Origin: Clytia hemisphaerica
Lineage: Eukaryota; Cnidaria; Hydrozoa; Leptothecata; Clytiidae
Assembly (NCBI GenBank): GCA_902728285.1
Contig: CACVBU010000871.1
Coordinates: 496,001-560,000, forward strand
Length of the DNA: 64,000 nt
Direction of reading: 5' to 3'
Positions 6,601 through 52,100 of this stretch are shown here, piece by piece. Both the position numbers and the translations under genes were made by a program. Under the pieces are notes generated by a model. That model had not been told where the DNA came from and ran no database searches. It saw only the letters and a program-made list of their open reading frames with translations. Each line of letters starts with the position of its first letter. Position 1 is the stretch's first letter.

Positions 6601-9600
6601 ACGCACATGTGACCAGAAGATCTTCGGTTTGGTCTTTGCGTTATCACAAATTCTTTGTTCGTAGTTCCTGTGAGCTTGTCTCATCAATTTGCTCACTCTG
6701 TTTCTTACAGGGGTGTATTTTGCTCGATTGTATTCTTTTTCTTCGGGCGATGATTTCATCCATTTCCGATGGAGGCGTCTCTTCTCTGCTATTTCTTTCC
6801 GAAGTTGAACTCCAATAGGTATTTTACCTTTCTTCTTCCAGTTTTGACCACCGATGATCTTTATGGGTACAAAACGGTTTCGTATATCCAAAATCTTCTT
6901 TCGGAAAAGCTGCCAAAGCTCCTCGGTTGACTTAGAATTAGCCATCTCCGGGAATTGCTTGTACCAATCATCAGAGTTGAGATCTTGTTTCATTGCTTCA
7001 AAGTCTGCGTCCTCGTACTTGTATCTTTCTGATTTAGGTTTCAATACAGCATCACATTTGATAGTGAAGGTCAAGCAACTATGATCGCTTAAACACAAAG
7101 GACTGAGATACTCTAGACATAGAGCTTGGTTAGCTTCACCTGTTAGAATGAGATCGACTAAAGATGGGTCGTCAGTCCCACGGCATCTGGTTGGTTCTTC
7201 TACACTTTGGTGGAGAAAGGAGTCGCGAAGGTCATCAAGAAATTTTTCTTCTTTACTTTCCTCGAGATGTGGCGTCGTCCAATTTTTCCAATTGATTGTT
7301 GGGAAGTTAAAGTCCCCGACAAAGCATTTATGAGAGTATTTGTTGTTTGATGCGATATCTTTGATTAGATGATTCAACTTGTTGTTATTTTCAGCTGACG
7401 TGTCATTGTTCGTAGGGGAGCGATAGATACAGGAGAAGACCAGGAGATCGTTTCCGGATAGACGAATTTCGATTGTGGATACTTCATTGAAATTGACTTG
7501 GTTCATTGATTGGTTGACATCGGTGACCAAATGTTTGATCGATGAATGAGCAAGAATAATTATCCAGCGACCGATGCCAGTGGTCATGTTCGTATGACTG
7601 ACACATTTATAATGTTTAAGCTCGTGTTCGTGTAGCTCTCGCAGTCCACCGTGCTTTGGTTTCACCTCACATATCGCAATGATGTGGGGATGATGTTTCT
7701 CTACATCAAGCACCAGTTGTCGCTTCTTCTCAGGTGTTAGCGTGTCGGCGTTGCAATAAAAGATCCTGATTTCGTTTATCTTTATTTCAAAATCATCTAC
7801 TTGATTTACGTTATGGTTTTCTTGAATTATTGTTCTCCGATTGTTTTCGTTTGAGTAAGATTCTTGGCGAATACTACATTCTTCGTGTCTGTCTTCTTTG
7901 TTTGGGATCTGATTTTGACCTTGATGATGTCGAATCCGTTTTTTGAGTCCCCTCGAACTCTCCATTTATAGATATCAGAGTTATCATTCTCATTTCTAGT
8001 TTTAGCTTTGAACGATAGTTCCCTTACGTTCTTTCTTTCATCTGGTGTTAGATCTTCAGTTATGCTTGTTGTCTTGTATTTTTGGATGCCCTTGAGAGAA
8101 GGAAGGTTTCCGAGAAGTGAAAATTTTTCCTTTTCGCTAGATAGACAGATTAATAAAGGGCGCTTCTTTTCCTGGGATGGTTTTCCGAGGCGACTGACAC
8201 GTTTGATAGTAGCGCGTGTGTGAGTGTCTTTAACAAGACCTTCGGCCCATGAACTGTCATCTTCTTGTTCTTGTTCTGCTAAGCCATGGATGACGACGTT
8301 GCGAGATCTTTTGATTTTGTCATTTTCTTCTGCTTCTTCTTCACGCCATGCATCCCTAATAGCTTCTCTGATAGTTGTTTGCTTGGCAGATACCTCAGAG
8401 GTCTTTGTAGCGTCAGCGTAAGACTTTTCCGACAATGACTTCATTTCTGTTTTGATAAGTTCTTGCATGTTGTGCTTGAATTTCTCCATGTTGGTTTCAA
8501 TCTTTTGTTCAACATATTCCAAAGTGTGGAGTGCTGGATTGTTGTCCAGTTTCTTTTTGAGGTCAGCGAGTTCTTTTTCTCTGGCATCGGCCGCAATTTT
8601 GTCTGCTTTGAACTTCTTCAGAAGCTCTGCTTCTTTCTCAGCTTTGACCTTGATAATGTTTTCACAATTTGCTACGTCCCTCTGCAGAGATTTCACCTTT
8701 TGGTTTGGGGAAGTATATGCACCAATATTCTTGGTCATAGTCACGCAGTTCACGCAAATGAACTTTATTCCTTTCGTCTTTCCAACAATCAGCTGGATGT
8801 AGTATGGAGGAAGTTCAGAACACGAATAGTGAACACTTCTCTCGCACTCGGTGCATTCGAGTCGATCTTTTTTCCTGTCGGTGATACATCGTGATGGTGT
8901 ACAAGTCTCCAGATCTTGTGAGCTTGCACTCAATTCTTCCAATGATGATGGTGATTGCAATGGTGAAGGTGTGACTGTTCGACTGCTCCGAAGAATTCTC
9001 TTCATTATGATGGATATGAATGAGATTTCCGTTTAATTAGTCAAAAATGTTGTTTTTTTAAGGATTTTTGAGATTTTCTTGAAAAAATGTTGAGCTGTGA
9101 AAAATGCGTGTGCTCTAGTTGACGTCAAATAATTCGAACAAGTTTTCTCGTCCTTTTAAAAAGTTAACAATGCCTTATAAACCTTCCTTCATATTCATAA
9201 CTCGAGAAATTTAATAATAATAATAATAATAATAATAACGATATATTTCACAGTATCTCCAAAGTTTTACAATTGGCTCTTCACCTGGAAATTGAGTATG
9301 ATAAATATATATGTAGCGTATAAAAAATATGACGTTCATTAAAAATACTGAGACCGGTTGTAACTAGAGACTAGAAGGCTAAAAGTTGGTAAAGCCAAGT
9401 ACGATCAAATACCGTTGTAGAGTAATATGAGCTTTGCAAAAGTAGACTGAGTGAACGTAGTGCTAGTGGTTTGTGCAAGACCGGTGTAAAACCAAAGTTT
9501 GAATTTAGATTAAGCTATAAGATATAACAAAATTGATACAACTTTTGATAACAACTAATAGAACTAATTCCTCCATGGACAGTAAAATAAAGTACGACCA

Positions 9601-20953: not shown

Positions 20954-20969
20954 GACTGATTACTAAAGG

Positions 20970-23721
20970 ATTTTTGTTTTAATGAATTTTTTCCTTTATC
21001 GCTGCGACCGAATAACTGAAACAACAGCTACTTTGATCGATGTTATTTTAACAACTGACGCATCAAACATCTCGTGTTCCCAAGTTATTAATTGTAGTAT
21101 GAGTGATCATGATATTGTTGCTTGCTGTCGAAAATTGAACCATTTTAAATATGAACCAGAAACTATTAAGTGCAGAGATTTTTCAAAATACAATGTTGAC
21201 ACAATCAATAATGAACTGTTAAATGTTGATTGGAATGTCGTTTACAGCACTACATGTCCTGTCAATGCACTCACCCACCTTTTATCGATTCTCAAAGAAA
21301 CACTTAGCAACCATGCACCTATCATCACTAAACGCATCAAAGGTAAACCATCACCTTGGATGACAGAGGACCTCAAAAAACAAATGAATACTCGCGACCA
21401 GCTAAACCGACGTGCTAAAAAGTCTCGAAACAATTATGATTGGCAAAGTTATCGTCGAAAAAAGAACTTTGTTAAAAATGAAATCATACGAGCCAAAAGA
21501 AATCACTTTAAAAACGAACTGAAGGAGAATGCTAATAACCCAGACCGCTTTTGGAAAATCGTTAAGAAAATTTTTCCTGTCAATAACAAATCGAACGTTA
21601 TTACGAAAAGTTTTAATCTCTCTGATGGTAAAACAACGACTGACGAAGACACGATATCTGACGGATTCTGCAAGTTTTATTCTTCAATCGCGAAAAACTT
21701 AAAGGAAAAGTCTTTTCTTTTGAAAAACTTTCTGTGGAGCTATGCAACACCCAATAATAGATACTCCACATTACCAAATTTCAAACTTTCAAGAGTTTCT
21801 GATATTCAAGTACTCAAATACCTTAAAAACTTGAAACGGAAATGTGCTACTGGGTTAGATGATTTACCTGCATCTTACCTCAAAGATATTGCTTATGTCA
21901 TCGCAAAACCGTTAACCCACACCATCAACAACTCTATATCAACTGGTATTGTACCAAATGAGCTAAAATCGGCTCGGATTACACCGATTTTCAAATCAGG
22001 GAATAATGGTCAGTTCGAAAATTACCGCCCCATCAGTATACTTCCAGTTATTTCCAAGATCTACGAAAAATGCATTCACGTCCAGTTGATGAATTATCTA
22101 GAATCCAATCATCTCCTTGCTCCGAATCAATACGGATATCGAAGTAAAAGATCAACTGAACTTGCAACTGCTTACTTCTGTGATAGCATTCGACGTGAGA
22201 TGGACAATGGAAAGTTGACTGGTGCAATCTTTGTCGATCTCAGCAAGGCCTTCGATACCATAGGTCATTCGACAATCATCGATAAATTGTCGAGCTTCGG
22301 AATTAACGGATTAGCAAAGGACTGGATCTCAAGTTACCTCTTCGGACGACATCAACGTGTGCGCTACAATGGATCATTATCACCTCCATCTCAGATCTTC
22401 TGTGGCGTACCTCAAGGATCCATCCTGGGACCTCTGCTGTTTCTGTTAATCTTCAACGACTCAACAAAATCGATAACCACCTGTAAAATGATGATGTATG
22501 CAGACGACACTGTAATTTTCTATTCAGATAAGAATATCGCCCGAATCCACGAGAACCTGCAAAGTGACTTTAATAGTTTTGTCACTTGGTTAGAACACAA
22601 TGAACTTATCATCAACACAAAAATTGGTAAAACTGAAACGATGCTTTTCGGTACCGGGAAAAGGATCAGCATGACAGAAGATACTTCTCTTTCAATAAAA
22701 CATAAAGAGAATATTATCAATCAAACGAACAGTTACAAATACCTTGGTCTCTCACTATCAAACACACTCTGTATGTCACAACACATCACCTCGTCAATCA
22801 AGGTAGCATCATCAAGACTAAACCTTTTGAAGAAAATGAGAGCATTCATGCATACAGAAACTGCCATAGTCATCTATCGATCCATGATCCTACCATTCTT
22901 GACCAATTGCAACTTTGCAACATATGGTGCCACACCCAACTATTTGAAAGAAAGGACTGTTTCACTTGAGAATCGTGCTGCAAGAATAATTGGGGAGAAA
23001 GTAAACAGCACTGATAAGATCAAAATTAAGCGAATGTGTTGTTTTGTTCATCAATGTGTATTTGGTAATGTTTGTGAGCCCTTTCAAAAATACTTTGAAC
23101 TGAAGAAAAAGCAAACTGCTAGAAATTTATCTACAGTGAATGTTCCAAGATTCAAATTAGAATCTGCTCGATATTCTTTCTATGTTCAAGGGGCCTTGGC
23201 TTTTAACAAATTACCAAAGAACTTTCAAATTGAGAAAGACGAATCAAAATTTAGATCATTTTTGAAAAATATTAATAATTTTGTGCACCTGACACCTACT
23301 TTTAGATTTTTGCTACAAACATACGTTTTTAGTTTCTAGCTTTACTACTTAGTCTCTTCTCTCAGCCTCTTTCCACCTTCTAGTCTCTTGTGGCGTTTTA
23401 GCATTAGATTTTACCACCACTTCTCCGAGTCTTGTATTTTAGAGAATGTCCCATAAAATTTCATTCAAACAATAGTTCTTAATCTATTGTTTCCCGTGAA
23501 CTTTATGAGGCACGCTGTAGAATTCTTAATTATTCTAAATCTTTTAAAATGATTTTAAAATGAATGTTTTTAAGAAATTTTTTTATGGTATTTTTAATAT
23601 TTATTTTATATTTATATATAGTTATATTTCATATTTACAGGACCCGATGGAAAACAGTATATTTATATAACTGAGGTGTATATCCTGTATAAATATTCGT
23701 AATAATAATAATAATAATAAC
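20970..23721 (+). mobile_element. 5'-truncated CR1/L2-like LINE
   Basis: It starts within the endonuclease domain and ends in (TAA)n at 23701-23721, the usual outcome of incomplete target-primed reverse transcription. The coding part is 20982-23339. A target duplication was not found by eye. Confidence 0.8.
20982..23339 (+). CDS. LINE ORF2 fragment: endonuclease end + intact reverse transcriptase
   Basis: 785 codons without a break. The first ~60 residues are the end of the APE endonuclease ('TETTATLIDVILTTDA' and 'MSDHDIVACC'), so the apparent ATG is not the true start. The RT core shows 'FENYRPISILPVISKIYEK', 'IFVDLSKAFDTIGHSTI', 'GVPQGSILGPLLFLLIFND' and catalytic 'MYADDTVIFY', with the C-terminal '...LAFNKLPKNFQ' motif present. 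The frame is fully open, which suggests a young insertion. It differs clearly in sequence from the LINE at 4.8-9.2 kb, so two lineages are present. Confidence 0.85.
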   Translation: MNFFLYRCDRITETTATLIDVILTTDASNISCSQVINCSMSDHDIVACCRKLNHFKYEPETIKCRDFSKYNVDTINNELLNVDWNVVYSTTCPVNALTHLLSILKETLSNHAPIITKRIKGKPSPWMTEDLKKQMNTRDQLNRRAKKSRNNYDWQSYRRKKNFVKNEIIRAKRNHFKNELKENANNPDRFWKIVKKIFPVNNKSNVITKSFNLSDGKTTTDEDTISDGFCKFYSSIAKNLKEKSFLLKNFLWSYATPNNRYSTLPNFKLSRVSDIQVLKYLKNLKRKCATGLDDLPASYLKDIAYVIAKPLTHTINNSISTGIVPNELKSARITPIFKSGNNGQFENYRPISILPVISKIYEKCIHVQLMNYLESNHLLAPNQYGYRSKRSTELATAYFCDSIRREMDNGKLTGAIFVDLSKAFDTIGHSTIIDKLSSFGINGLAKDWISSYLFGRHQRVRYNGSLSPPSQIFCGVPQGSILGPLLFLLIFNDSTKSITTCKMMMYADDTVIFYSDKNIARIHENLQSDFNSFVTWLEHNELIINTKIGKTETMLFGTGKRISMTEDTSLSIKHKENIINQTNSYKYLGLSLSNTLCMSQHITSSIKVASSRLNLLKKMRAFMHTETAIVIYRSMILPFLTNCNFATYGATPNYLKERTVSLENRAARIIGEKVNSTDKIKIKRMCCFVHQCVFGNVCEPFQKYFELKKKQTARNLSTVNVPRFKLESARYSFYVQGALAFNKLPKNFQIEKDESKFRSFLKNINNFVHLTPTFRFLLQTYVFSF

Positions 23722-25489: not shown

Positions 25490-27310
25490 TCTTGTTCAAA
25501 TTTACACATGAGCTGCATTTTAGTCTACATTTACCATGTCCATATTCCATTTAAAATTAGTATTTTATAATAATTCTGTGTCGAGTTTGAAAAATCAAGC
25601 CGCCAATTCGTAAAACACAACAGATCCAGAAACAACCATATTCACATGTAGCATCATGGAAAAAGTTCCAATCTTGTTCAAATTTACACATGAGCTGCAG
25701 TTTAGTCTCCATTGCCATATTCCATTTAATCGGTATTTGAAATAATTCTGTGTCGGGTTTGAAAAATCAAGCCACCAATTCGTTGAACGAGACAGATTTA
25801 GAAATATATAACCATTTTCACACGTAGCATCATGAAAAAAGTTCCAATCTTGTTCAAATTTACACATGAGCTGCAGTTTTAGTCTCCATTGCCATATTCC
25901 ATTTAATCGGTATTTGAAATAATTCTGTGTCGAGTTTGAAAAATCAAGCCACCAATTCGTTGAACGAGACAGATCTAGAAATATATAACCATTTTCACAC
26001 GTAGCATCATGAAAAAAGTTCCAATCTTGTTCAAATTTACACATGAGCTGCAGTTTAGTCTCCATTGCCATATTCCATTTAATCGGTATTTGAAATAATT
26101 CTGTGTCGAGTTTGAAAAAATCAAGCCACCAATTCGTTGAACGAGACAGATCTAGAAATATATAACCATTTTCACACGTAGCATCATGGAAAAAGTTCCT
26201 ATCTTGTTCAAATTTACACATGAGCTGCAGTTTAGTCTCCATTGCCATATTCCATTTAATTGGTAATTGAAATAATTCTGTGTCGAGTTTGAAAAATCAA
26301 GCCACCAATTCGTTGAACGAGACAGATCTAGAAATATATTAGCCTGGGAATCCAAGCGTTAAACTTTTTTCACAGTCTAGTTTATGATATTTTTGCTGCT
26401 GGTTTAACGCTTGGTGCAGGTAACTCGCCTGCAGGGACATTTTTCCCTGCAATGCAGGTTCGGCCTGATTGGCCTGCTTTCGGCGTATTACTTAGCAGTA
26501 ATTTCGCGCGCATTTTGATAATTTCGATGCACGCGCATAATTTATGGAAAAAGCTGACTTTGCAGAAAAAAGGAAAACAAATGAAAATGAAAACATAGAT
26601 TCATTTAGAAACAAAATGGCTGTTGACTGGAAGTCTAAATACATGTGGCTGATGTTTTGATGTGGTTTTTAGTAGTTTTGAAAGTCTTTAGAGCTTGTGA
26701 AAGAGTTTTTATGGTAAGTTAATTATGTGTGTTTGCCTGGGTTTCCAAAGTTCAGAAAGTCTGTCAAGAAGGGTTCACACACAGACTGTTTATAACATTC
26801 TGTGTCAGACTAATCTACCTGCACCAAGCTCTATAATTTTAGAACTTTGTGAGGTGAGGTATTTTTTGTTTTTTCTAAAATTATGAGCTTGGATTCCCAG
26901 GCTAGAAATATATAACCATTTTCACACGTAGCATCATGGAAAAAGTTCCAATCTTGTTCAAATTTACACATGAGCTGCATCTTAGTCTCCATTGCAATAT
27001 TCCATTTAATCGGTATTTGAAATAATTCCGTGTCGAGTTTGAAAAATCAAGCCACCAATTCGTTAAACGAGACAGACTTAGAAATATATAACCATTTTCA
27101 CACGTAGCATCATGGAAAAAGTTCCAATCTTGTTCAAATTTACACATGAGCTGCATTTTAGTCTCCATTGCCATATTCCATTTAATATCGGTATTTGAAA
27201 TAATTCCGTGTTGTTGAGTTTGAAAAATCAAGCCACCAATTCGTTAAACGAGACAGATCTAGAAATAACCATTTTCACACGTAGTATGATTGAAAAAGTT
27301 CCAATCTTGC
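25490..27310 (-). repeat. ~177-bp satellite array A with an open reading frame
   Basis: Seven to eight head-to-tail copies with spacing of 175-182 bp (landmark CACATGAGCTGCA at 25506, 25688, 25863, 26040, 26218, 26967 and 27144). On the - strand the 177-bp unit equals 59 codons, and about four units read through openly (26248-25595). Each carries 'CKFEQDWNFFHDATCENGY' and 'DLSRSTNWWLDFSN'. The array is interrupted by a transposon at 26340-26904. A diverged array of the same family is at 46600-47640. The array has no signal peptide and no clear start, so coding status is uncertain. Confidence 0.8.
26340..26904. mobile_element. non-autonomous DNA transposon with 18-bp TIRs and 9-bp TSD
   Basis: Perfect inverted ends TAGCCTGGGAATCCAAGC / GCTTGGATTCCCAGGCTA, flanked on both sides by GAAATATAT (26331-26339 and 26905-26913). 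A 9-bp duplication is typical of Mutator-like elements (family knowledge). It split satellite array A, so it inserted after the array formed. No transposase is encoded in the 565 bp. Confidence 0.85.
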
Positions 27311-30570: not shown

Positions 30571-33500
30571 ATCTCATGGATTTCTTAACCTTTTCACAAA
30601 TTTCTTCCCGAATGGTTTCAACAACTTTGTGCACGCTTTGCTTCTTCCTTTCAACTGGAATTTTCTAATATGAAACAATAACTCATTCAAAATAAGCAAA
30701 ACAGTACAGAGAAAAATTGAAAGTTTTGATCACGTCATTCTTAACAATTATTAATTGTAGTCATCTCCTTATTCAACATATTCATCGATTCAGTAAAATG
30801 TCAGTCGGTAATCAGTTAGTCATACTGTCATGCTGTACTGTAGATAAAGTCACTGTCAGTTGCCGCTTGTTGAAATTTAATTTTACCTTTGCCCCTAAAG
30901 CTTTATTGGAATCACTCTTCTCTTTACGTTTTTTGGCGATTCGAGTTTTATATCTTGCGTTTGCAGTGCGAACAAAATAAACGGCGTTTGAGTTGATGGG
31001 ATCATACAAGGGGTCTTTGCGATGGTAAATTTCAGAGGAAGATTTCGACTGTAAGCTGTATTTTACGGTCATGATACCATCGTAAGTTTCCACATTCATG
31101 CGGTTTGATTTGCGGTCGATGATGTCATTCATTTTGCTGAAAGATGACTCCACTTGAGGGCCGGTAAAAATTGACAGACAAGCTTTCACTACTTTCGATA
31201 AAACACAGGGTATTTCTTGGTTAAAAAAACCTTGTTCCACCAATGATCAAGACGAATATCTTTTCCTGCTTCGTCGGTAGTTGATGGAAGACCATCGTCC
31301 AATTGAATGCGGGAAACTTCATTTAGATACAATTCTCGATCTTCTTCGCTGCCAAGGATTGTGGGAAAGAAGTCGGAAAGGGTTTTAAGGTGAATGTAAG
31401 ACTTTCCAGATACGATGTGGTTAGGATCAAGCCCAGCCAAGCATTGTAAAACACGATTAGATAATGGAAAGTTCTTCTGTATGTACATTGCTGTTTCAAC
31501 GTAGGCTTCCTTAACACATGCTTTGAATTCGTTGAGAGTCTCAATCTTTTTTTCTTCTTTTAATTTCTTACCGAGCGTTCTCGTCATTGTGCCTGTATAG
31601 ATGTGCTTGCTTTTTCGTAAATTTCCCTTCACGTCAACTTTCTGAAGCTTTGACCCGGTGAGACCTTTAAAAAGAATTCGATTCATTTTCTTTAGGGAAT
31701 GTCATGAAATCAAATCCTAAACACAATTCTTTAATTTCTAACCCTTAAAAGTAGCTTTAAACAGACTGATTTGCCAAAATATCTTACTGGTGAAATCAAA
31801 TCATTTAGATATCCGGGTCAAAAGAAGTTAGAGATATGCATTTTAAGGATATCAACCATTTTGGAAAAGAATAGATATACCTTTGATAGTGCTGTGCTCC
31901 ATGAAACATGCAAAGAATTCGCGAGTGACAGAGGAAATACTGCTATGAAGTCTATGCACTTGTGGTGACTTCTGTTGAAAGATCAGGACAAAAGATTTGA
32001 ACAAAGGAAGCACTGCTTGATAGAATTCAGCCACAAGCTTAGTCATGTCACATCTATGTATCAATTTTCCAAAGATGCGTTGTTTTCGTTCCTTGCCTTT
32101 TTTAGTTAGACCTTTCTTTCGCATTGTGCTTTGAATTTCAATGATATTTTGTTTGCCTTCCTTGCTGGCATCAACTGTGAGTAGTTCTTTCTCATCTTTG
32201 TAAAGAAGGCGATCTTCTTTGGTCATCCAACTGAAATACAACAACCAGAGTGCACTAAACATAGGATAATTTTGGGTTGTTGAATTATATGATGATAACC
32301 ACCGATGTGCAACTGGTTCGCTAGGCTTGTGGTATTCAGAACCAATGATAAGACAAATATGTTGGAGAGCCTGCTTAATATCCGCACTGAACTTGACGTC
32401 ATTGTGAATATCACGCCATAAACTTTCAATGTGTTGTTTGAAGGGTTTGCAAAACACTTTAACAGCATTGTGAACTTTGTGGCATAAATCTCCGTCAATA
32501 TCAAGCAAATGCAGGGCCTTATCACGGAGCCTAAAAAGATGAAACATGAAGCATAGTCTAAAACAAATACTGTATTGAATAGAGTTGAATGATTAGCCAT
32601 ATAAGATAAATTACTCGAAAATGACGTGATTAACTTTTTCTTCAAACAACCGAGAGGAAAATTATCAATAAGACAAGACGAAACCATACACCTTCATAAG
32701 ACATGCACCTTCATAAGACATACCTTTTCTCGATTCCACTTTTTACACCACGCATGTAAGCTGCTGAATCACTGAGGTCGGAAATCAGATTATCAAATGG
32801 AATTTGGTCTTTGGCAAATACATCACAGATTCCTTCGAACAACTCTAAAGCATTGGTTTTGATACATTCGAAAGAGCAATAATGTTCTACAACACATTCA
32901 CCAATCGATTCATCAAAATACGAGACAAGAATTGTAAAGACTTTCATACCACTTGATGCGGTGCATTCATCAATGTTAATGGAAAAAGGTGATTTTCGTA
33001 GATTACTGATTATTTGTCTTCTTTTATGAACACCAAGACCATCCACAATCTTGTAAGTTGCTGAAGTCGCACTGATATTTACTGCATTCAGAGCTTTTGA
33101 ATCTACACTCAAGTCTTTGCATAATTGTGTTAAGTGAGGAGCAACCGAGAGTGGTAAATTGTGTTCACAAATAAACGATACTATATACGCTTCTATATTA
33201 CATTTCCGGTCGAGAAGACTTACAAGGGGTTTCTTCACAACAACCTTTCCAGAGTCGCAAAGTTCTTTGTCATGAACATTATCGGCTGCTCCGTAAGGCA
33301 ATTGGCATGTGGGTTGTTGATCAGTGTTCGTTACAGGCTCGTAATATGATACTGGAAGGGATGTATTACTAACTCTAACTTCTCTCTCCTTCTTATGTTT
33401 TTCCTTAGTCTGTGCGTGTTTTCGAAGGTTATTTTTACCCGCAGAACCGTATGATATTGGCGTTTTGCAATATGTACAATATGCATAGCCTGGTTTATTT

Positions 33501-33673
33501 ATCTTGACGATGTAATCTGACAAAAAGTCTTTGTGCGGTCCCAAGTCTCTCTCCTCTAACCAGCACCAACGCCATTTGTTTTTTACTGTACCTTCCAAGT
33601 CGCATTGCTCTCCTTTACGCTCTAAAACTTTGTATGTCACGTTCTCTAACACTATGTACTTTTCTGAATCCAT
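30386..33673 (-). pseudogene. hAT transposase with BED zinc finger (4 exons, one frameshift)
   Basis: Exons on the complement: 33673-32724, 32530-31881, 31664-30887 and 30664-30386, with consistent splice phases (2, 1, 0). Exon 1 has a BED-type finger ('YCTYC...LRKHAQTKEKH', residues ~60-90) and the catalytic-core start 'SINIDECTAS'. Exon 2 carries 'PSEPVAHRWLSSYNST', a hAT-like motif. Exon 3 ends with the dimerisation region 'LDHWWNKVF' and 'VLSKVVKACLSIFTGPQVES'. These last two are in different frames: one base is missing in a T7 run at 31223-31229. Exon 4 encodes a Lys/Ser-rich tail made of three ~80-bp repeats. The product would be a nuclear cut-and-paste transposase. It is otherwise intact, so recent activity or an assembly error is possible. 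Confidence 0.8.
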
Positions 33674-34126
33674 TCTTCAAACTTCCGTTAGTAGATATTT
33701 AATATAATTTATATTCATCACTTTTTCGTAATTTAACTCTAAAAAATAAATAGAAATGACTGTTATAATATTTCGTGGATCAAAATAACTTTTGCTTACC
33801 AACTTACCATAAATCAAACATAAAAAGCCAAGGTTGTGTGAATCAGGAAATTTCAAAACAAAAGATACATATTTATTTAAACGATATTTCGATCTTTACA
33901 GATCTTTATCAAATTACCAACTTACCATAAATACTAGAAAACAAATGTATATCAGCCATAAACAGTTTTAATACGAGATTTCTTTCTGAAGGAATTATCA
34001 GGGAGTAAAATCACTATTTCTTGCTAAATAACTATTTCTAACTGAGACGGAAAACTTTGACAAAATTTCTGTGAGACGGAAATCCGTCTGAGACGGAAGA
34101 ACTTTGATCACTGAAATAAGATTTCA

Positions 34127-40100: not shown

Positions 40101-43100
40101 CGCGCGAAATGAGCGACAGTTTTCTGCATAACCTTTTTTGCCTGAAGAAAAGATTACATCATAAAAAAGTTTCGCGGGAACAAAAAAAAAGTTGAAGGAA
40201 GTTCTACTTTTTTCATCCGTTACGTCAATTTCTACCAATGGAATTGCTGCATTTTTCAACCGCCCAATGACCTTACAAAAACGTCAAAAAGTTTTCGCTC
40301 ATGTCGCGCGAAATTGGAGACCGGCCTTTATACAATTAATACTTCCCAATGATGTTTAAAGTTATTAAAGGATCTCAGTTTTAATAAAGGTAAATGGGCT
40401 AATGAAGTTGAAAAGGAGATCCCACTTAAATAGAAAGCTTTATTGTAACAAACAAACGAACGAGTAACTTTTAAGTAATCCTTAAAGGAAGCAAGTTGGA
40501 CTGGCTTCTTTTTGCGTCTATTTGATACTATTCAAGAATTCAGAAAAACACTGTTACTTGTGCATTATTACTTTAGTAGGACATATTTTAAATAGAAATA
40601 CTTAAAACGAGCAAATGAGGATTTGTTACCACGTACCTGATTGACATCAATGATATCACCATTTTTCTTGGCGAACGCTTTAGATATGGATACACTGATA
40701 GCGTAACTAACCAAAGCTATGGTTAGCGAGTCCACCAACATTTCTTTGATCAGATCCGAGTTGAATGAAGGATATGTAATTGGTGGCATTCTAAAGGGTT
40801 ACAAATGTATAATATAATAAGTGCAATGGTTCGATAGGGTAAAAAGGATGGGCCTAAGCCCCCGGGGAGGGGTACTTAGGTAAAAATGGGTGCTGGGTAT
40901 GTTCGGACGGTAAGGGTCAGTTTTTTTACCCTTCAAAGTCTTTCTAAGGGTCCCGTAAGAGGTCCCGTCTGCACATACCCCTTATCCGCCAACCGTAGTA
41001 CCCCCCCCCGGGGCTTATGTATAATAAAACCATGGCCTTTAGAGTGAATACGTACCATACACGTAGTATCAGAATCTGTTTGGAGATTAAGTACCTTGCT
41101 GTTTAATTTGAAAAGTAAGTAAAGTTATGAGTAGTATGAGAGAATTGAGAGAATGAGAGAATTCCATGCATTTATTTTAAACTGAATAAAAATGTTTTGA
41201 AAATCCTTCTACAAAACAATTTCTAGAACTTCATTCACCCGGAGGGGGGGGGTACTTAGGCAAATAGAGGGTACGGTATGTAATTTTGGATTTCCAAAGT
41301 CCCGCTAAGGGTCGGGAAAATTAGAAAATCAAATTTCAGTCCTACTAAGGGTCGGAAAAATGGGAAAATTTCAACTTTTTACCCCCGGGAAGATCGAAAT
41401 TTGGTCAAAATTGGTCAAATTTGTCCCGCTAAGGGTCGTAAAATTCCCTAAATGTTCCTTTGTTTTCTCCTTTCACAAGGGTCAAAAGTCGGGCGGCACC
41501 CCCCTCTATCAAGCCTAGTAAACCCCACACTTATTTCGAGGTAGTAAGTTGCCGATAGCATAATCACTTACCCTTTAGGAACATTTTTCAATATGATGAC
41601 ATCATATCTATGATGAAAATCAAAACCATATGATAAACCAAGTCCCAGTGATATCTAAAAGCAATCAAAACGTTAAATCTGTGACATAAACAAAGTTGTT
41701 AGATTTAGAATTTCCAGTCTTAAACTTGGCTATGGGTTGTTAATTGTACATAATAAGAAGTCTGTTACTAAAGTTTATTCATCTTGGCAACCGGAGTACT
41801 GATAACTGAAAAATGACACTGTAAAGTAGCGATAGAAATGGTCGGGTGAGTGGCACCTTCCCCTACCTTTCGGTAGATAGCCATCGAAAGATGAGCCCTC
41901 GGGTCGCGTTAGACCACAGTCGCAGACTTCCTTATTTTAATCATGAACCCTGTGATTGATACGTGAGGATCTCCCGACGTGAATTCACATATCCGAGCAT
42001 AATATACTTACAACAATAAGTTCAGCTGGTATAGGGATTTTGATCTTCTCTTTATACTTTTGAGCGAAATGTTTCACCACAAGTAGAATAATAAATGCAA
42101 CCAACCCAATCAAAAAAGAAACGTAATTCGCTTGTTTGATATTGTAAAATATATAGCCGTAAATCTGAAAATGAAAAAAGTTTAAAAATAAATCGTTTTC
42201 TAACTGAGAAGGCAGAAGCTTTGTAATGAGCCGAGTGATTTAAGCCGTTAGCTCGCTAGAATCCAGGAGTCCATTCTGTCAATAGATAAACAAGTCAGCT
42301 GGTTTTGGACAATGATCGAAATTTAGCTTACTGAGCTATTCACGTAAAATATCGACTATAACAACACTACAGGGCCAATAAATAATTCGGCCGGGGAATA
42401 TGAAAATATCAGTTCTAAACTTGCTAGATGATGCATTTAAAGTCTAATATTAATAGTACATCAGAGCCCCCGTCCCGCCAATTTCAGTTGAAGCGTGGCT
42501 GAAACATAAAATTCTTTATTGTCAACACAGTCCATGATATTCATTACGTAATGCTTTCTACGGAAACAACCCAGTTTTGGCCATTAGCAGCAAATTTCAA
42601 ACAATTTTTCTCTACCTTAGATTTGTCTTTACTGGCAAAAACCAGGGTATCTTCGCAAAAAACAACAACATTGCGTCATAAATCAGGCCCGTAGCATCCG
42701 GGGGGGGGGGGGGGGGGGGCAAAAAAAAGTTGGTAGCTTTGAAAAATCTTGTATTACTGGCTTCATTTTGAACATTAATCCGTTTTCCAAAATCTAGCGA
42801 AATTGCGAAATTTTTTCTTGTTGTAAATTTACGAAAACAAATTGCCGAATAATTTTAAATAATCACAAAGTGATGTTCGGGTTACAGCCAAAAAGTTTGA
42901 ACAACCAAAGTTCACCGGGATTTACTAATCAAAATGTAATCATAATTAACGCTAGCCAAGATTGGAAGTAATCGAATTTGAAAAACCAAGTCCTGCTGTC
43001 AGATATCAGAAAGAAATATATAAACTCACCTTAAATAAACTGAAGAAACCACTTGTGTCTGCTCTTGGTATGTTCATTCCCACTAAATGTTTGACTTGAC

Positions 43101-46100
43101 TGGTGGCAATGTGAAATGCTGCACCAGTAGTGAAGCCACTGATCAATGCATCTGACAAAAAGATGGTGATGAAGCCAAAACGAAGAAGACCAAATATCAC
43201 CTATGGAATGAATTGAAACCTAAGGTCAAAAGATGCGGATTTTTGCCTGATAGCTAATTGGTTTGGACAGCTTATGTCCTGAAGCTTGTGAAGCTAAAAC
43301 GAACAAGCTAGATGCTGAATGGACCTACCTGATGATGAAAATTAGATAGCAATGACGAGAAATAAAAACAAAATCAATCAGAAAATATAGCGGTTAGCGA
43401 AAATGCATTCAATTTCATCATTGATTGTTGATGGGGGAAGAGGGAAAACTCCCTACTCCCCGTAGGGAAAAAAGAAATAGAAAGTTCCGGTTGCAAAATT
43501 GCAAAAGTTTTATTGACAATCATGCTTCATGACATGGCATTGTTATCAATAATTTTTTTTAAGTGAAAAAACAAAGAAATATAAGGAAAAAGCCCAATTC
43601 AAATCTGCAAAAACGGCGATTTCCGGCATACTTCCGGCATTTTCGGCCAGAAAAATATGATTCTCAAAAATCCGAATCGGCCACACTTAGGGCATTGCTG
43701 ATACACATCTTTGTGCAAAAATCGGGAAAAACGAATAATGAAATCTCGAAAAAATGGCAACAAACCGGTTTTGACGGCATATTTCCGGCATTTTTGTCCG
43801 AAATTTTTTTTCTTCAAAAAATCAGGCTCCGTCACATTTTAGGTATTGCCATTTTGCATCAGTGTGCAAAATTTCATAAAAAAAGATAAAGTACAGCTCG
43901 AGAAATTCAAGAAAATTCGAGTCTTTCCGGGGAAATTAGGTTGTTCCAGCGATTTTTAAATAGTTCCGGCTTCAAAAATCAATTTTATTGAAAGTTGAAA
44001 CATGCTTGATGGTGGGCATTGCTATTAATAATGTTTTTGAATTAAAAAACAACCAATTATAAGGAAAAAGTCCAATGAAAATCCAGAAAAACGGCGATTT
44101 CCGGCATATCTTTTTTATTTTTATTTTTATTTTTTATTTATTTTTATTTTATTTTTATTTATTTTCATTTTCGGCCGGAAAATTTTTTTCTTCGAAAATT
44201 AGGCTCCGTCACTTTTTAGGAATCATCATTTTGCATCTTTGTGCCAAAAATCAGAAAAAACTAATGAGCCGATCCCGAGAAAAGTTGGTAACAGACGAAC
44301 GAACGAATGGACGGACGAACATGGGTTAATTCAAAGGACATCTACCAGGGTACCCGGAGGTAGGTCCAAAAGACCAAAAATACACGCTTTTTTATAAGAA
44401 TAGTGTTTTTTTTTTGGCTGAGGGTGAGCATTATTCTCATTTTTCTATTGTTCTAAACAATAGGCATATTGTTCTAACTCCGAAATCTCACCTTGATATT
44501 CTTATAGAAGTTATTCTTATAAAAAAAGGCGTGCATCAATTATTGAAGAAGCTGGAAGAAGTGTAAGCTAAGGTCAAAGCTTAGGAGGACCTTCGCAAAC
44601 ATGTTTGTTATAAAAATACTTTTTTTTGCAAAAAAAAGAACTCGTGAGGGTGAGTCGAGAAGAAAAAACCGGGAACGGATTTGACAAAAATACTGAATTC
44701 ATTTGCTATTTTTGAGATTTTGAGATCAACTTCCTCGTATATTTTTTAATTGAAACATTTGGACATCTTTCACTCGCTTTCAATATAAGAAAAGGTGATA
44801 TTCAATGTAGTATAGTAGCAGGAAGTTGCTGACCTTTACTTCCTTTACTTCCTCACGCACATCTTGTAGTACTCATTCGCCCTCACGCCCCAATAACCAA
44901 ACTATAACCGCTTCAATAAAGCACACATTTCCGTCCTAGATACACGTTGTTTTTTATAAGAACAAACTATATAAGAACATAACGCTTCGAAGACCAAAAT
45001 AATAAGAACAAGTTACGAACGATCTGAGGCTCCCAGACTCATCCAATTTTATAGGAAATTGCACAAGAATAACCGCAAAATGGTGAAAATAAGAACATCT
45101 TAAGAACATCTATAGGCTTAAAACTTAAAAAGTTAAAAATATTCTGAAGGCTTCAGAAATTTTGGATGTTCTTAAAGAGAAAGGTGTACATTTGGAAGTT
45201 GTTTTTAGAACATACCTTTCCTTCATCTAAAAACACTTTTGGTAGTTTTAAAAGTAATATAGTATCAATTTAAACTGCTTTTAACGCCTTATTGAAGTAG
45301 TTAAGGTTTAAGTAACTAGGGGTGGGTGACATCCGACTAAAAGTCTTCATCTCGTAAAATAGAGGGAGAAAGGGGGACTTCCTTTAAAGTTGTTAAGGGA
45401 GTGAGGGAGGAAGGAAGAGGGGGTTCCTTTTAAAACGGTTAAGGGAGTATGTATCATTTGACCTACTACGCCTATGTAATTGAACAATAACGTACGCAAT
45501 CTTCCTAGGTTTAACTGATATAAAAAGACGGCTTGCCACGGAGAAAAATCATTCTCAACACTTAAGAACCACACTAAAAGAGCAAATTCTTCTATATTAA
45601 TTAAATCGATGAAAATGTTGAAAGCTTTATTGTTTATCTCATTCGTTATTTATGCTGTCCAAGGTAAGTACAATAAACCAGCTGCGCTGGAAGCTCTGGC
45701 TCAAGAGAATAAAAGATGTGAAAGATGAGTTTGTTGAGTAAGCTGTGTTAGAACGTTGCCCACAAACTAGAATCAGAACAGATCAGAAAAGCAAAGTAAT
45801 AATTCTATTGCAGAACGAGTATGAGAAATAATCTTAACGAATATAAATCCGGGGGGGGGGTACTAGGGTTGGTGAATGAGGGGTATGTGCGGACGGGACC
45901 TCCGAAAACCGACCCTTAGAGAGACCAAATTTTAGTGAAAAAGTGACCCTTAGAGAGACTTTTTCGAAAAATTTTCTCTGATTTTTAAAAATTTCCTACC
46001 CTTAGTGAGACTTTTTTGTATTTTTTTCTCTCAAAATCAAATTTTTTTTCTAAAAATCGTGATTTTTCCCACCCTTAGAGAGACTACTTTGAAATTTCCT

Positions 46101-49100
46101 GATTTTTGTAACCCTTAGAGAGACTTTTTTTAAAAGGTGAAAAACCCGAACCTTACCGTCCGCACATACCCAGCACCTATTTTTGCCTAAGTACCCCCCC
46201 CGGATATAAATAAACCAGCTGAAAATTTAGCTCTTCTAAGTGATTACACGTGTACTTTCTTGCCTAAAGAACCCCAACCCACCCCCCCCCCGCCCACTCA
46301 TCCTCGACTAAAAAGTTCAAAATTGGAGCTAAAGGAGTTAAACATTTAGGAGTCGATATTTCCAAGTTCTTATAAATTTATGTTTTTCTAAACTTGCCAA
46401 TAGTGAAGCCATGATGCGCCGTTGATTAGATTGTCCGGATAAAATTTTGGGGAGAAATATAGCCTAAATTAGAGGCCACGGCTTTTAGCTAAGCATTATT
46501 TTTTCTGCTGGGATAATACTTGGGGGAAAGTAGGATAAACCAAATAAAATGGTACAATAGTGTGTATGTAATAAATAGTGGTATATTTGGAAAAAACCTG
46601 TTTCGGGTTTGAAAAATCTTCAAAAGGAACGGTCGCCCCAGCCAATGAAATTAAGACAAAGTTCAAAAAATATCATTTTCAGTTATAACACTGTGAAAAT
46701 TTCTCCGATCTTGTTAAAATTTACACAGGAATTGTGTTTTAGTATCCTTTACTGAATTCTGATATGTTTGTAAAAAATCTGTGTCGGGTTTGAAAAATCA
46801 AAAGGAACGGTCGCCAGCCGACGACAAAGTCCAAAAACGATCATTTTCAGCCATAACACTTGAAGATTTCCCGATCTTGTTCAAAATTTACACATGAATT
46901 GTGGTTTTAGTCCTTTACGGAATTCTGATTGTTTGTAAAAAATCTGTGTCAGGTTTGAAAAATCAAAAGGAACGGTCGCCAGCCGACGACAAAGTCCAAA
47001 AATGATCATTTTCAGCCATAACACTGTGAAAATTTCTCCGATCTTGTTCAAATTTACACAGGAATTGTGTTTTAGTATCCTTTACTGAATTCTTATAGTG
47101 ATATGTTTGTAAAAAATCTGTGTCGGGTTTGAAAAATCAAAAGGAACGGTCGCCAGCCGCGATGAAATTACGACAAAGTCCAAAATTTCTCCAATCTTGT
47201 TCGAATTTACACAGGAATTGTGTTATAGTATCCTTAATGAATTCTCATAGTGATATGTTTGTAAAAAATCTGTGTCGGATTTGAAAAATCAAAAGGAACG
47301 GTCGCCAGCCGACGACAAAGTCCAAAAACGATCATTTTCAGCCATAACACTGTGAAGATTTCTCCAATCTTGTTCAAATTTACACAGGAATTGTGTTTTA
47401 GTATCCTTTATTGAATTCTCATAGTGATATGTTTGTAAATAATCTGTGTCAGGTTTGAAAAATCAAAAGGAACGGTCGCCAGGCAGTCAACAATGTCAAT
47501 GATGAGAATACAAAACAGGATCATTATCAGCCATACACATAACACCATAAACATTACTCAGATCGTTTTCAAATTTGCACTGTAATGTTGTGATTTTAGT
47601 ATTCTCTTTTGAATTCCAATGGCTATGTGTTTGAAAGTTTCATTTCCAAGTTACAGAGTTTTATGGTTTTGTGCGTCGTGCGTCTAGAAGAGAAGTTAGC
47701 CATATGCAAGATTTAAGCACTCGATCAGCTGACGATTCATGGCCAAAATTTCTCCAAAGTCTTTCCACATTGTTAGAGAACCAGTATGCATTAAACTTCT
47801 CATAAATCATGTCCAAAATATCATGAATAATGATGAAAATGATCAATTTTTCACTGAGATTTGCTCATTCGCTACACAGTCAGCTAGCCCACTATATTAT
47901 CGGAATCCAGATAATCCGTTTTTATTAAATCGGAATAGATTATCGGATTAGATAAACAAGCAAAAAATGTCTTGACCGTCGTCGGACGAGAGAGAATTTA
48001 AGGCTCCTAGGCCGGAGCAATTATACCATAAAGTGTTTTTACCACTGAGTAAAGAAAAGATTGATAAGGTACGCATTTAATGTTTTTCACTGACTGTCAG
48101 AAGATTTAAATCAACCATCAACAGTTTTGACTGTCAAATACAAAATATTGACAATTGAAAATGTAAAGTATACATTAAGAGTAATATTCTTTTAATTGAC
48201 AGTCCATAAAAACTGTTGATCGTCAGTCGAAGTTACCGACAGTCAGTAAAAAAAAAGTACCTAATCGATCATACAAGAAGTTTTAATGATAGCTGAGAGT
48301 CGAACCTTAATCCTTTCACAAAGTTACCTAATGCTTTGTCAGTCCTAATTCAATGAAAAATGTTACCATTTGATTTTGTCCGTCTTTTAGCCACCAATTC
48401 TCATGAAGATGAACAAGAAGATCCACATAAATGGGGTATGATCAAAACCAAACATCACGGACGAAATCATCCATACCGTCAGCAAATCAAAAAATACCGA
48501 CAAAACCATCACGATGAACAAAATGTCGAGGACCAAGACGCTTTTGTCGGGCGAATGGCCAATTCAAAAGTTCTCAGAGCGTTTGGCCTAGCCTCAAGTT
48601 TGGCCAAAAAATTCGGAGATGAAAAAGAAGACCCACATAAATGGAGTATGATCAAAACCAAACATCACGGACAAAGTCATCGACATCGACACCAAATCAA
48701 GAAATACCGACAAAACCATCACGACGAAGAAAATAACGAAGATCAAGACGCTTTTGTCGGAAGATTAGGAAGCAGTAAACTATTCAGACTTTTAAACGTT
48801 GTGCCCAAAGTTGCAAGTAAATTTGGAGACGAGCAAAAAGGTAGGATTTCATTAAAACATTTACATCATAAATAATCAAATGTTATAACCGATGCAGCGT
48901 CAGAATTTGGCACGAGAACAAAATAGCAAAATTAAGCTATTCCCTTCCAATAGATCTTTGAATGTAAAAAATTGTACATAAAAACCATCCCCACTGTCTT
49001 TTTTAAGCTTGGAACAAATGAATTCCTATTTTCATTGGGAATTCGATAGAAATATTACTTCACCCCTCCGTGGTATAAAGTTTCACCGGGACTGTGGGAC

Positions 49101-52100
49101 AGGGGTGTGTTCAATGTTTTTCACTGACTTTCAGAAAATTTAATCCACCATCAACAGTTTTGACTGTCGAATACAAATTATTGACAATTGAAAATTGAAA
49201 GTGTAAGATTTTTTGTCAAAAATCTTTTATTTGACAGTCCATAAAAACTGTTGATCGTCAGTCAAAGTTACCGACAGTCAGTAAAAAACAAGTACCTAAT
49301 CGATCATACAAGAAGCTTTAATGATAGCTGAGAGTCGAACCTTAATCCTTTCACAAAGTTACCTAATGCTTTGTCAGTCCTAATTCTATGAAAAATGTTA
49401 CCATTTGATTTTGTCCGTCTTTTAGCCACCAATTCTCATGAAGATGAACAAGAAGATCCACATAAATGGGGTATGATCAAAACCAAACATCACGGACGAA
49501 ATCATCCATACCGTCAGCAAATCAAAAAATACCGACAAAACCATCACGATGAACAAAATGTCGAGGACCAAGACGCTTTTGTCGGGCGAATGGCTAATTC
49601 AAAAGTTCTCAGAGCGTTTGGCCTAGCCTCAAGTTTGGCCAAAAAATTCGGAGATGAACAAGAAGATCCACATAAATGGGGTTTGATCAAAACCAAACAT
49701 CACGGACGAAATCATCCATACCGTCAGCAAATCAAAAAATACCGACAAAACCATCACGATGAACAAAATGTCGAGGACCAAGACGCTTTTGTCGGGCGAA
49801 TGGCTAATTCAAAAGTTCTCAGAGCGTTTGGCCTAGCCTCAAGTTTGGCCAAAAAATTCGGAGATGAAAAAGAAGACCCACATAAATGGAGTATGATCAA
49901 AACCAAACATCACGGACAAAGTCATCGACATCGAAACCAAATCAAGAAATACCGACAAAGCCATCATGATGAAGAAAATGGCGAGGACCAAGACGCTTTT
50001 GTCGGAAGATTAGGAAGCAGTAAACTATTCAGACTTTTAAACGCTGTGCCCAAAGTTGCAAGTAAATTTGGAGACGAGCAAAAAGGTAGAACTTCATTTA
50101 GTTATTTAGATAATAAATAATCAAATGTTAACGAAATGCCAAAATTAAGCCATTACAATAGATCTTTGAGTTTGACACCACTTTTTCGAAAAAGAACTAA
50201 GTGAAAACCCAACGTCACAGAAAAGAAGCCTGAGTGTAGTTTTGTCAATATAATTGCGAAATTCTCAAAATTCGGTGTAAACGAGTTTTTTTACTCAGAG
50301 TTAGCTTATCCTGGCTAATCTATAACATACCTGAAAATGAAAAATTAAAGCGGAACTTCAGACAGACAGACAAATGCCTTTCACAGCACCGCCTTTTTTC
50401 TCGGCAATTCGAAGGCTTAAACGCCCCAACTATAATTATCTCAATAATGTATGCCTGCATAGTTTCCTCCCGCCCCCCTTTTTGCTGGGGGATTCTTTTT
50501 CAAAAAATTTTCCAAAAGGGGGGTGATATCCAGGGGGGTTTAAAAAGGTGCAACAAAATATTTCTGGGAACAGAAAGTCTTCTATCAATTTTTTAGTTTT
50601 TTTTTACATATGCATGTTTCTCTTCTTCAAATCACATATTAAAAACAATCCACTTCGCTATTTGCAGTATTAACGTTTATGTTGGACGAATTAACAATTT
50701 ACAAACACTCAGAGCTTCTAAGTCCGTCTAAGATTATTTTAAAATATTTAATCAATCGAAAGATATAGGAGATTACAATTAAATAATTTGCATTTAAATT
50801 TTCTTATTTCAGAAAAGTGAGGAAATGTTACCTGGAAAGAAGTATCAAAATCAAAGCCACAAAACACCAAGATGATGTAATCTGGAAATTTTTGTTAAAT
50901 CTATTCGCCATAGTAAAAGCTTTTCGGCTACGCCATCGTCAGTACAAAACTGGAATTTTTTAATTTTTTTGTTTTTTTGATTAATTTTATTGAAAGATAA
51001 TTCTCATCTTGAATAATCTGCTTTTTATTCTATCTTAAGAATAAAATTGTACTCGAATCGGATTAGTTTTTGCATGAATCTAATTTCGCGAATCATCATC
51101 ACCTCGTGCGATGTTGCAATAAATTTCTCGAAAAACGCGAAAATTTATTCCGCAAAAATTAATTGGAAAATCGGCCTCCTTAAATCTGCCTTATATCTTT
51201 TTCTTAGCCATTTTTGACATATGAGGCTCAAAAGATTCTTATGCTTTATCTAAATTAAATTAGGTCCTGTTAGGTCTCGTGTTCTTAAAGAATTAATAAT
51301 TCAGCGTGTAATCCGATAGCTGTTAATATTACCTGGAAGATGCCGACCATGAATGATAGAGTAACAGCATATTCAACTTTTTGTGTTATAAGATACTGTT
51401 GTTGGTCGAAAAGCGTTGCGTTCGGCCTGTCCAAAGTCACAGGGTAGTTCTGAAAATGTCCCTGCACCGATTCGCCAACCATTAGTGAGATAATCGCAAA
51501 GGTTCCTGTAAAATAGAGAGATTCGTTATACTTTGGCGATTCGTCGACCTTTTATTGATTGAAATCCCAGATTTCAGCTGTTTTTTGTTGCGAGACGCTT
51601 GCGAGAAAAATGACACACCATTAACAACACTATTCAACCTAAAATTACTTTTAAAAGTTTTTACGAAAAGAAATTGTTACGGCAAATGGTAGATCGTTAG
51701 AGATTTCAATTTTTCGGCATAAAAGACTTTCGTGCGTGTTTGTCAAAGATTCGCGGAAAGCGAAAGTTTCTCTTTATATCATAACTATTTTGACCTTCAT
51801 TATACCAAACAATATGACTGACTATCACTTCTTCAAATGACAATCGAAACCTTGACCCCATAGGCGTAGCGAGATACCCTGCAAAATTTATGAGGGAGTG
51901 CAGAAGTATATGACATATTTATTATCTTTTGATAAAACAAAGACAATAATTACAGTGTCGTAAAAACCGCTCTCATCCATAAATTTTGCAGGGTATCTCG
52001 CTACGCCTGTGTTAACCCCGAGAAGTAAGAGCCGAACTTAATATTTTTCTGGATGTTTTGAACATACCTATGTTAAGAAATCTTGATGTCCCCATGAAGA

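Follow-up and report, generated by a model that had tools for sequence, protein, structure and literature searches.

A gene nested in an SLC26 intron of Clytia hemisphaerica and a leader-exon family of putative cationic host-defence peptide precursors

What does the gene that lies antisense within an intron of SLC26 in the hydrozoan jellyfish Clytia hemisphaerica encode, and does it stand alone in the genome? The gene is found in a 64,000-nucleotide stretch of DNA (hereafter the window; coordinates are those of the window unless a contig such as C1 is named). An earlier sequence-only reading of this DNA had proposed a secreted multi-peptide gene composed of a signal-peptide exon, two cassette exons and a terminal exon. 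Judged from its sequence, this appears to be a genuine spliced gene whose secreted product consists of repeated cationic peptides. Comparison with the rest of the genome further suggests, with a probability of roughly 0.6, that this locus belongs, as a divergent member, to a family of jellyfish genes for secreted cationic host-defence peptide precursors. The gene had been described as having no named family and we likewise found no name for it, yet it is not isolated, as 19 loci, its own included, have the leader exon.

A leader exon and promoter that recur across the genome

The coding part of the signal-peptide exon spans 45609..45663 on the plus strand, starting with the ATG at 45609 and encoding 18 residues plus the G of a phase-1 junction, and is followed by the donor CAAG|gtaagt after 45663. 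Upstream lie a CTTCCT element (45501..45506), the TATA box TATAAAA (45519..45525) and the initiator TCATTCTCAA (45549..45558), the probable transcription start; the spacing is 18 bp from CTTCCT to TATA and 30 bp from TATA to the initiator. We searched the whole genome (417 Mb, 951 contigs) at the DNA level with window positions 45490-45680 as query. The query matched itself and 12 other places at 81-90% identity, with matches covering the exon and the start of the intron. Ten of the 12 extend from the equivalent of window position 45608 or 45609 to 45670, one is 2 bases shorter and one begins 18 bases upstream. Searches with paralogues as queries raised the total to 19 loci, the window included, a search count that is to be read as a lower bound. 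Nine of these loci are on C1 (82146-124107) and four on C228 (63259-70148), while single loci occur on C195, C722, C889 and C291; the remaining two, the window itself and C599:717537, share contig C599. The C1 and C228 clusters are of mixed orientation and three of the nine C1 genes are damaged. Across the family, four of 19 loci are visibly broken, namely C1:124107, C1:95751, C291 and C1:113371, the last having ATC in place of the start codon.

The leader sequence is the same as that of the window, or close to it, at 18 of 19 loci, with that on C291 decayed. Seventeen of the 18 tabulated loci have a gtaag donor in the equivalent phase-1 position (C291 is out of register), and the nineteenth, C599:717537, has gttag. 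The promoter recurs as well. The initiator TCATTCTCAA is exact in 15 of the 18 tabulated loci and present as a variant in the other three, and a TATA-like box lies 28-31 bp before it in 17, as TATA proper in 14 and as CATAAAA or TACAAAA in three. In all 17 loci where the distance could be measured, CTTCCT precedes the TATA-like box by 15-25 bp; it is also present at C291, the eighteenth. At C599:717537 the corresponding elements are TTCCT, TATATAA and an identical TCATTCTCAA. Because the family loci share both TATA box and initiator at matching spacing, we accept these elements in the window, and the signal-peptide exon, donor and promoter of the sequence-only reading are thereby upheld. By these comparisons the exons of the window gene and their common frame are more than a chance pattern. 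A gene start at the in-frame ATGs at 48360 or 49395 is rejected, given that 18 further loci have this leader exon and promoter; the family genes examined start with a separate leader exon behind the shared promoter, and both ATGs are intronic, as had been proposed.

One paralogue may document use of this exon. When C1:117483 is spliced as predicted, its product agrees letter for letter with P0002 (eukprot:TCONS_00021886-protein). We take the TCONS label of P0002 to mark a transcript model; if it does, the leader exon and its phase-1 junction are used in one paralogue. TCONS numbers denote C. hemisphaerica transcripts (PMC9525680; this and the papers cited below are cited for the parts of them at hand). 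Further relatives are P0001 and P0003-P0005, which come from ENA and JGI sources.

Duplicated cassette exons and the three-prime end

Downstream of the leader lie two plus-strand cassette exons, both phase 1-1, each with an open phase-1 frame and each preceded by TCTTTTAG: cassette A (48391..48840, 450 nt), with two units of ~70 residues, and cassette B (49426..50085, 660 nt), a near-identical duplicate of A with three units. Both acceptors are present, and the claim that the two cassettes share a reading frame with the leader holds; joined to A, B and the exon at 50813, the leader gives a single frame of 390 residues with no cysteine. The two cassettes are ~98% identical and the identity includes about 200 bp of upstream intron, where the flank of A (48183..48390) has a ~98% identical duplicate at 49218-49425. 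We therefore read this as a recent duplication or conversion of the cassette exon, with one extra unit in B.

The five units fall into two types that differ at 22 of 69 residues. Between-type comparisons (n = 6, not independent) give synonymous divergence (dS) of 0.81-1.01, non-synonymous divergence (dN) of 0.21-0.23 and dN/dS of 0.20-0.28, with a dN/dS of 0.20 for the two units of cassette A. Because synonymous sites have diverged this far at so low a dN/dS, both cassettes are, on this measure, protein-coding and under purifying selection. Each unit contains a basic segment rich in His (HKW...NHH) and a cationic, in part amphipathic segment (DAFVGR...KKFG), with acidic spacers alternating with them. 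The acidic SHEDEQEDP, for example, is followed by a 29-residue segment with a net charge of +8 (His excluded), and these basic segments hold six to eight histidines per 29 residues. The motif DQDAFVGR is present in all five units, twice in A and three times in B, and EDPHKW, IKTKHHG and QIKKYRQ are equally invariant (5/5 units). A single-sequence structure model of cassette A was mostly helical, with a mean predicted local distance difference test score (pLDDT) of 60.3 and a predicted template modelling score (pTM) of 0.18, too unsure for a fold search.

Searches of Pfam, NCBIfam and PDB with the cassettes returned no sensible match, and Rfam gave none at gathering scores. A GP63 match to cassette B (30 bits against a cut-off of 25) consisted of three short repeat stretches, the best of 26 residues, and was taken as chance, like the weaker matches.

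The three-prime end is less certain. A candidate terminal exon (50813..51045, plus strand) was placed by acceptor and phase; a pyrimidine-rich acceptor precedes 50813 and an AATAAA lies at 51040. Splicing to it contributes merely EK and a stop (50813-50820). The cassette donors, gtagga and gtagaa, look weak, and the alternative is read-through to the stops at 48873-48875 (A) and 50118-50120 (B). The predicted protein ends in QKEK, or in LHHK or LDNK. Between A and B, 8 of 32 bases differ in the tail from donor to stop, compared with 9 of the 207 bases of the last unit (p = 0.0005), and 7 of the 8 differences are non-synonymous by hand count. Because the tail is so much less constrained than the exon, we favour an intron after the cassette donors. 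In the ten-unit sibling at C599:717537, described below, a gtgagt was seen by eye near the end of the array. Our searches yielded no homologue or transcript of the terminal exon, and the other family members examined terminate at their own stop. Given these members and the weak-looking donors, we put use of the terminal exon only somewhat above even. Thus, of the proposal that leader, two cassettes and terminal exon fit together in one phase, the leader and cassettes stand and the terminal exon at 50813 is not confirmed.

Cationic paralogues and a candidate role in defence

In the paralogues an acidic region, with HDP, RDP, NDP or EDP at its end, precedes a cationic peptide. In type 1 (C1, C195, C722) a long acidic region ends in ELHDP and is followed by IWGLAAKVAAKAIPSAVRLLSRRRSGKK or a close variant, and the proteins end in SGKK. 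Type 2 (C1) has acidic regions, then DPKPIFSFVKSLFSRRR... and a second basic peptide; the C228 form has acidic regions, then DPQPIFSFVKRLFKRK... and again a second basic peptide. At C889:388436-389941 (minus strand) a single leader is followed by seven tandem mature exons within 1.5 kb, five of them intact and ending FGLSK-stop (four of these begin EDPKGG), one with an early stop and one with a frame change; these are apparently alternative terminal exons. We also observed, at C291:671937-672065 (minus strand), a type-1-like mature-exon fragment with an internal TGA and none of the 19 leader exons nearby.

The locus at C599:713039-717537 (minus strand), 153-158 kb past the window end, comprises a leader, a short acidic exon and, behind a CTGCAG acceptor, an open frame of ten tandem units of 40-41 residues built as EDP + ILPALFGAASLAPFVIKAGKKIFRG + DMPKNLKELVDQ. 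Each unit holds a cationic amphipathic segment, and the array has a non-synonymous to synonymous ratio of 0.15 (first 25 codons, all ten units). The locus would therefore be a second multi-peptide precursor on the window's contig.

The window gene carries the features by which we recognise the family, namely the leader exon with phase-1 donor, the CTTCCT-TATA-TCATTCTCAA promoter and an acidic stretch, DP and cationic segment, and its plan (acidic, DP, cationic, acidic, cationic) matches that of the paralogues. Compared with 500 residue shuffles, amphipathicity as high was reached by 2 shuffles for the ten-unit peptide, 12 for the C889 peptide, 20 for type 1, and 22 and 45 for the C228 form. 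With the Pfam model PF08024 ('Ant antimicrobial peptide'), one of eight type-1-like proteins scanned, C1:83581, passes the cut-off (26.3 vs 25 bits); five others score 18.5-22.6 and two (C195, P0001) have no match. The PF08024 alignment in type 1 starts no more than two residues from the DP.

We hypothesize the following scheme. Splicing would join a shared leader module (promoter and signal-peptide exon with phase-1 donor) to mature-peptide exons, one or several, of very different sequence; in the window gene the mature exon is duplicated (A, B), each copy holding two or three units of ~70 residues. Once the signal peptide had been removed, the acidic spacers would keep the cationic parts neutralised, and cleavage at acidic and basic residues, as in cnidarian prepropeptides, would free several peptides that would act on microbes. 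We infer the processing, the antimicrobial action and the terminal exon, the window locus is presumably expressed, and the defence role suggested for it is drawn from its relatives. We favour a role in defence because of the plan shared with the paralogues together with published descriptions of Hydra antimicrobial peptides (AMPs), cnidarian preprohormones and the multi-unit precursors of bees and ants.

Published descriptions present Hydra AMPs as small peptides that have a signal peptide and a bipartite charge, are encoded by clustered paralogues and, in some cases, are made in neurons (PMC10945409). By that description, Hydra arminins and periculins resemble the window family in being hydrozoan and taxonomically restricted, with a signal peptide, strongly biased charge and clustered paralogues, and are set apart by the multi-unit precursor, duplicated cassette exons and lack of cysteine in the window gene. 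The C-terminal Gly that serves amidation in arminin is also absent from the window gene, whereas the SGKK of type-1 paralogues would allow amidation. The same 2024 study reports Hydra AMP families to be restricted to that genus, without homologues in Hydractinia and Clytia (PMC10945409); there is no conflict with this since we do not claim homology of the window family to them. In another phylum, placozoan arminin-like AMP precursors are described as having, like the window family, a signal peptide, acidic N-terminal and basic C-terminal regions, and cleavage motifs of the DE kind, which are described as widespread among cnidarian prepropeptides (PMC12013895). In the apidaecin gene each of several exons codes for a distinct peptide, and repeated AMP units with spacers occur in bees and ants (PMC3415428). 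By description, apidaecin and ant hymenoptaecin precursors share with the window gene one leader followed by repeated peptides with spacers, although theirs have EAEP spacers and RR sites where the window family has DE-rich spacers and DP boundaries. Frog skin AMP precursors (temporin, brevinin, palustrin) likewise combine a conserved signal peptide and acidic propiece with a hypervariable mature peptide, but have one mature domain per precursor, unlike the window gene (PMC7106915). In Clytia itself, the PF1 proteins of planulae are described as abundant small secreted proteins for which antimicrobial activity was raised as a possibility, with cysteines indicative of disulfide bonding (PMC12225738), whereas the window protein has none. 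By analogy, the family may work like Hydra arminins and apidaecin-type multipeptide precursors; we claim homology to neither. Among the open-access papers listed on Clytia and cnidarian AMPs, arminins and innate immunity, none names such a family in its title or abstract opening.

Several results weigh against a role in defence. The His-rich segments of the window units are no amphipathic helices, with 490 and 451 of 500 shuffles scoring at least as high, and while one of the two candidate helix segments is clear (9/500) the other is marginal (63/500). Type-2 peptides fail the same control (260 and 443/500). Neither the window protein nor type 2, the C228 form, C889 or the ten-unit peptide has a match to any AMP model. 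The mature parts of the window gene and C889 show no homology to each other (100-381 of 500 shuffles score as high). The window's mature sequence has no homologue in the protein collection, and at the sensitivity used its only genomic matches are the two cassettes of the window itself. For this reason the function of the window gene is argued from leader exon and architecture. Neither a transcript of the window gene nor, in the collection, its protein was found, though the transcript-type model of a paralogue is present there. Finally, we know of no demonstrated antimicrobial activity for any family member.

These results leave room for other explanations. The gene may be a neuropeptide precursor that releases several copies of the pyroglutamate peptide pGlu-Asp-Ala-Phe-Val-amide from DQDAFVGR. 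In cnidarian preprohormones, acidic residues precede peptides that start with Q, and G plus basic residues follow at their C-terminal end (PMC9545775, PMC8638164); DQDAFVGR fits this pattern of acidic residue, Q-peptide, G and basic residue, remaining identical in all five units despite the difference between types at 22 of 69 residues. In 8 of its 10 units, the sibling at C599:717537 shows this pattern around a longer peptide, DQ-EDPILPALFGAASLAPxVIKA-GKK. Multiple copies, acidic residues ahead of the peptides and G plus basic sites would be features in common with the preprohormones of those papers, but most window products would be long and cationic, and the units match no neuropeptide family named there. 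EDPHKW, IKTKHHG and QIKKYRQ are, moreover, just as invariant as DQDAFVGR, and in the sibling the peptide with this pattern is a long one, cationic and amphipathic; the pattern could therefore just as well be a sign of amidated defence peptides. Neither QDAFV nor DAFVG appears in the main text of a hydrozoan neuropeptide survey that included Clytia transcripts. We consider a pure neuropeptide precursor unlikely. A mixed alternative, in which a portable leader module has repeatedly been joined to unrelated mature exons, multi-unit members yield defence peptides plus a short amidated signal from DQDAFVGR, and the mixture depends on which cassettes are used (A, B or A+B, each in frame), seems if anything slightly less probable. 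We retain both because DQDAFVGR and the sibling pattern fit amidated cnidarian peptides.

It is also conceivable, though improbable, that the product is an unprocessed secreted structural, mucus or metal-binding protein, His-rich with acidic and basic blocks. The histidine content of the basic segments would suit this, but leader and promoter are common with genes for cationic-peptide-like products, one of which passes the cut-off of a Pfam AMP model; the low-confidence helical model of cassette A supports neither this explanation nor defence in particular. Alternatively, the locus might be a young or dying copy that is not expressed now, with the measured constraint dating from the past. The broken state of four of the 19 loci, the weak-looking donor of cassette B and the missing window protein in a collection that holds a paralogue's could all be read this way. 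However, the window gene is intact in its frames, acceptors, leader and promoter, and as P0002 is the sole protein identical to a family product among the matches listed (90% clusters; 7995 candidates scored in one search), absence tells little; we view a silent copy as doubtful, to about the same degree as a neuropeptide precursor.

If a defence-peptide precursor is the correct interpretation, Clytia has an AMP family of its own whose members can be told by their leader exon but not by their products, and which homology searches would easily miss. One leader exon would then serve mature exons without detectable mutual homology, and a genetically tractable medusa would gain a defined peptide set for work on animal-microbe interactions.

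The host gene and its surroundings

The nested position of the gene is clear. SLC26 exon 4 (43030..43200) and the coding stretch placed for exon 3 (51333..51503) are both on the minus strand, and the joined sequence of four SLC26 exons matched SLC26 structures, prestin among them (best E = 3.5e-55). Exons 3 and 4 are separated by an intron of 8132 bp (43201-51332), which agrees with the antisense nesting in an 8.1-kb intron that had been proposed. The nesting inside SLC26 is probably incidental.

The first intron of the nested gene contains a tandem repeat (46569..47606) with copies 152-195 bp apart (direct repeat families D2, D4 and D7), whose pattern in translation looks, by eye, similar to the repeat-coded frames at 25595-27243. 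A short interspersed CCCTTAGAGAGACT motif is repeated in the same intron at 45900-46140. Elsewhere in the window, long frames at 5152-9032 (minus strand) and 20967-23339 (plus strand) appear endonuclease- and reverse-transcriptase-like and were assigned by eye to long interspersed nuclear elements, and frames at 30812-33676 (minus strand) resemble, also by eye, a hAT-type transposase. Outside the window, contig C900 is a mitochondrial contig of 14,551 bp with cox1, cut, at one end and TGA read through. After cox1 we noted by eye, on one strand, cob, nad4, nad1, nad4L, nad3, nad6, nad5, nad2, cox3, atp6, atp8 and cox2, a gene order that we take to be that of a hydroidolinan hydrozoan.

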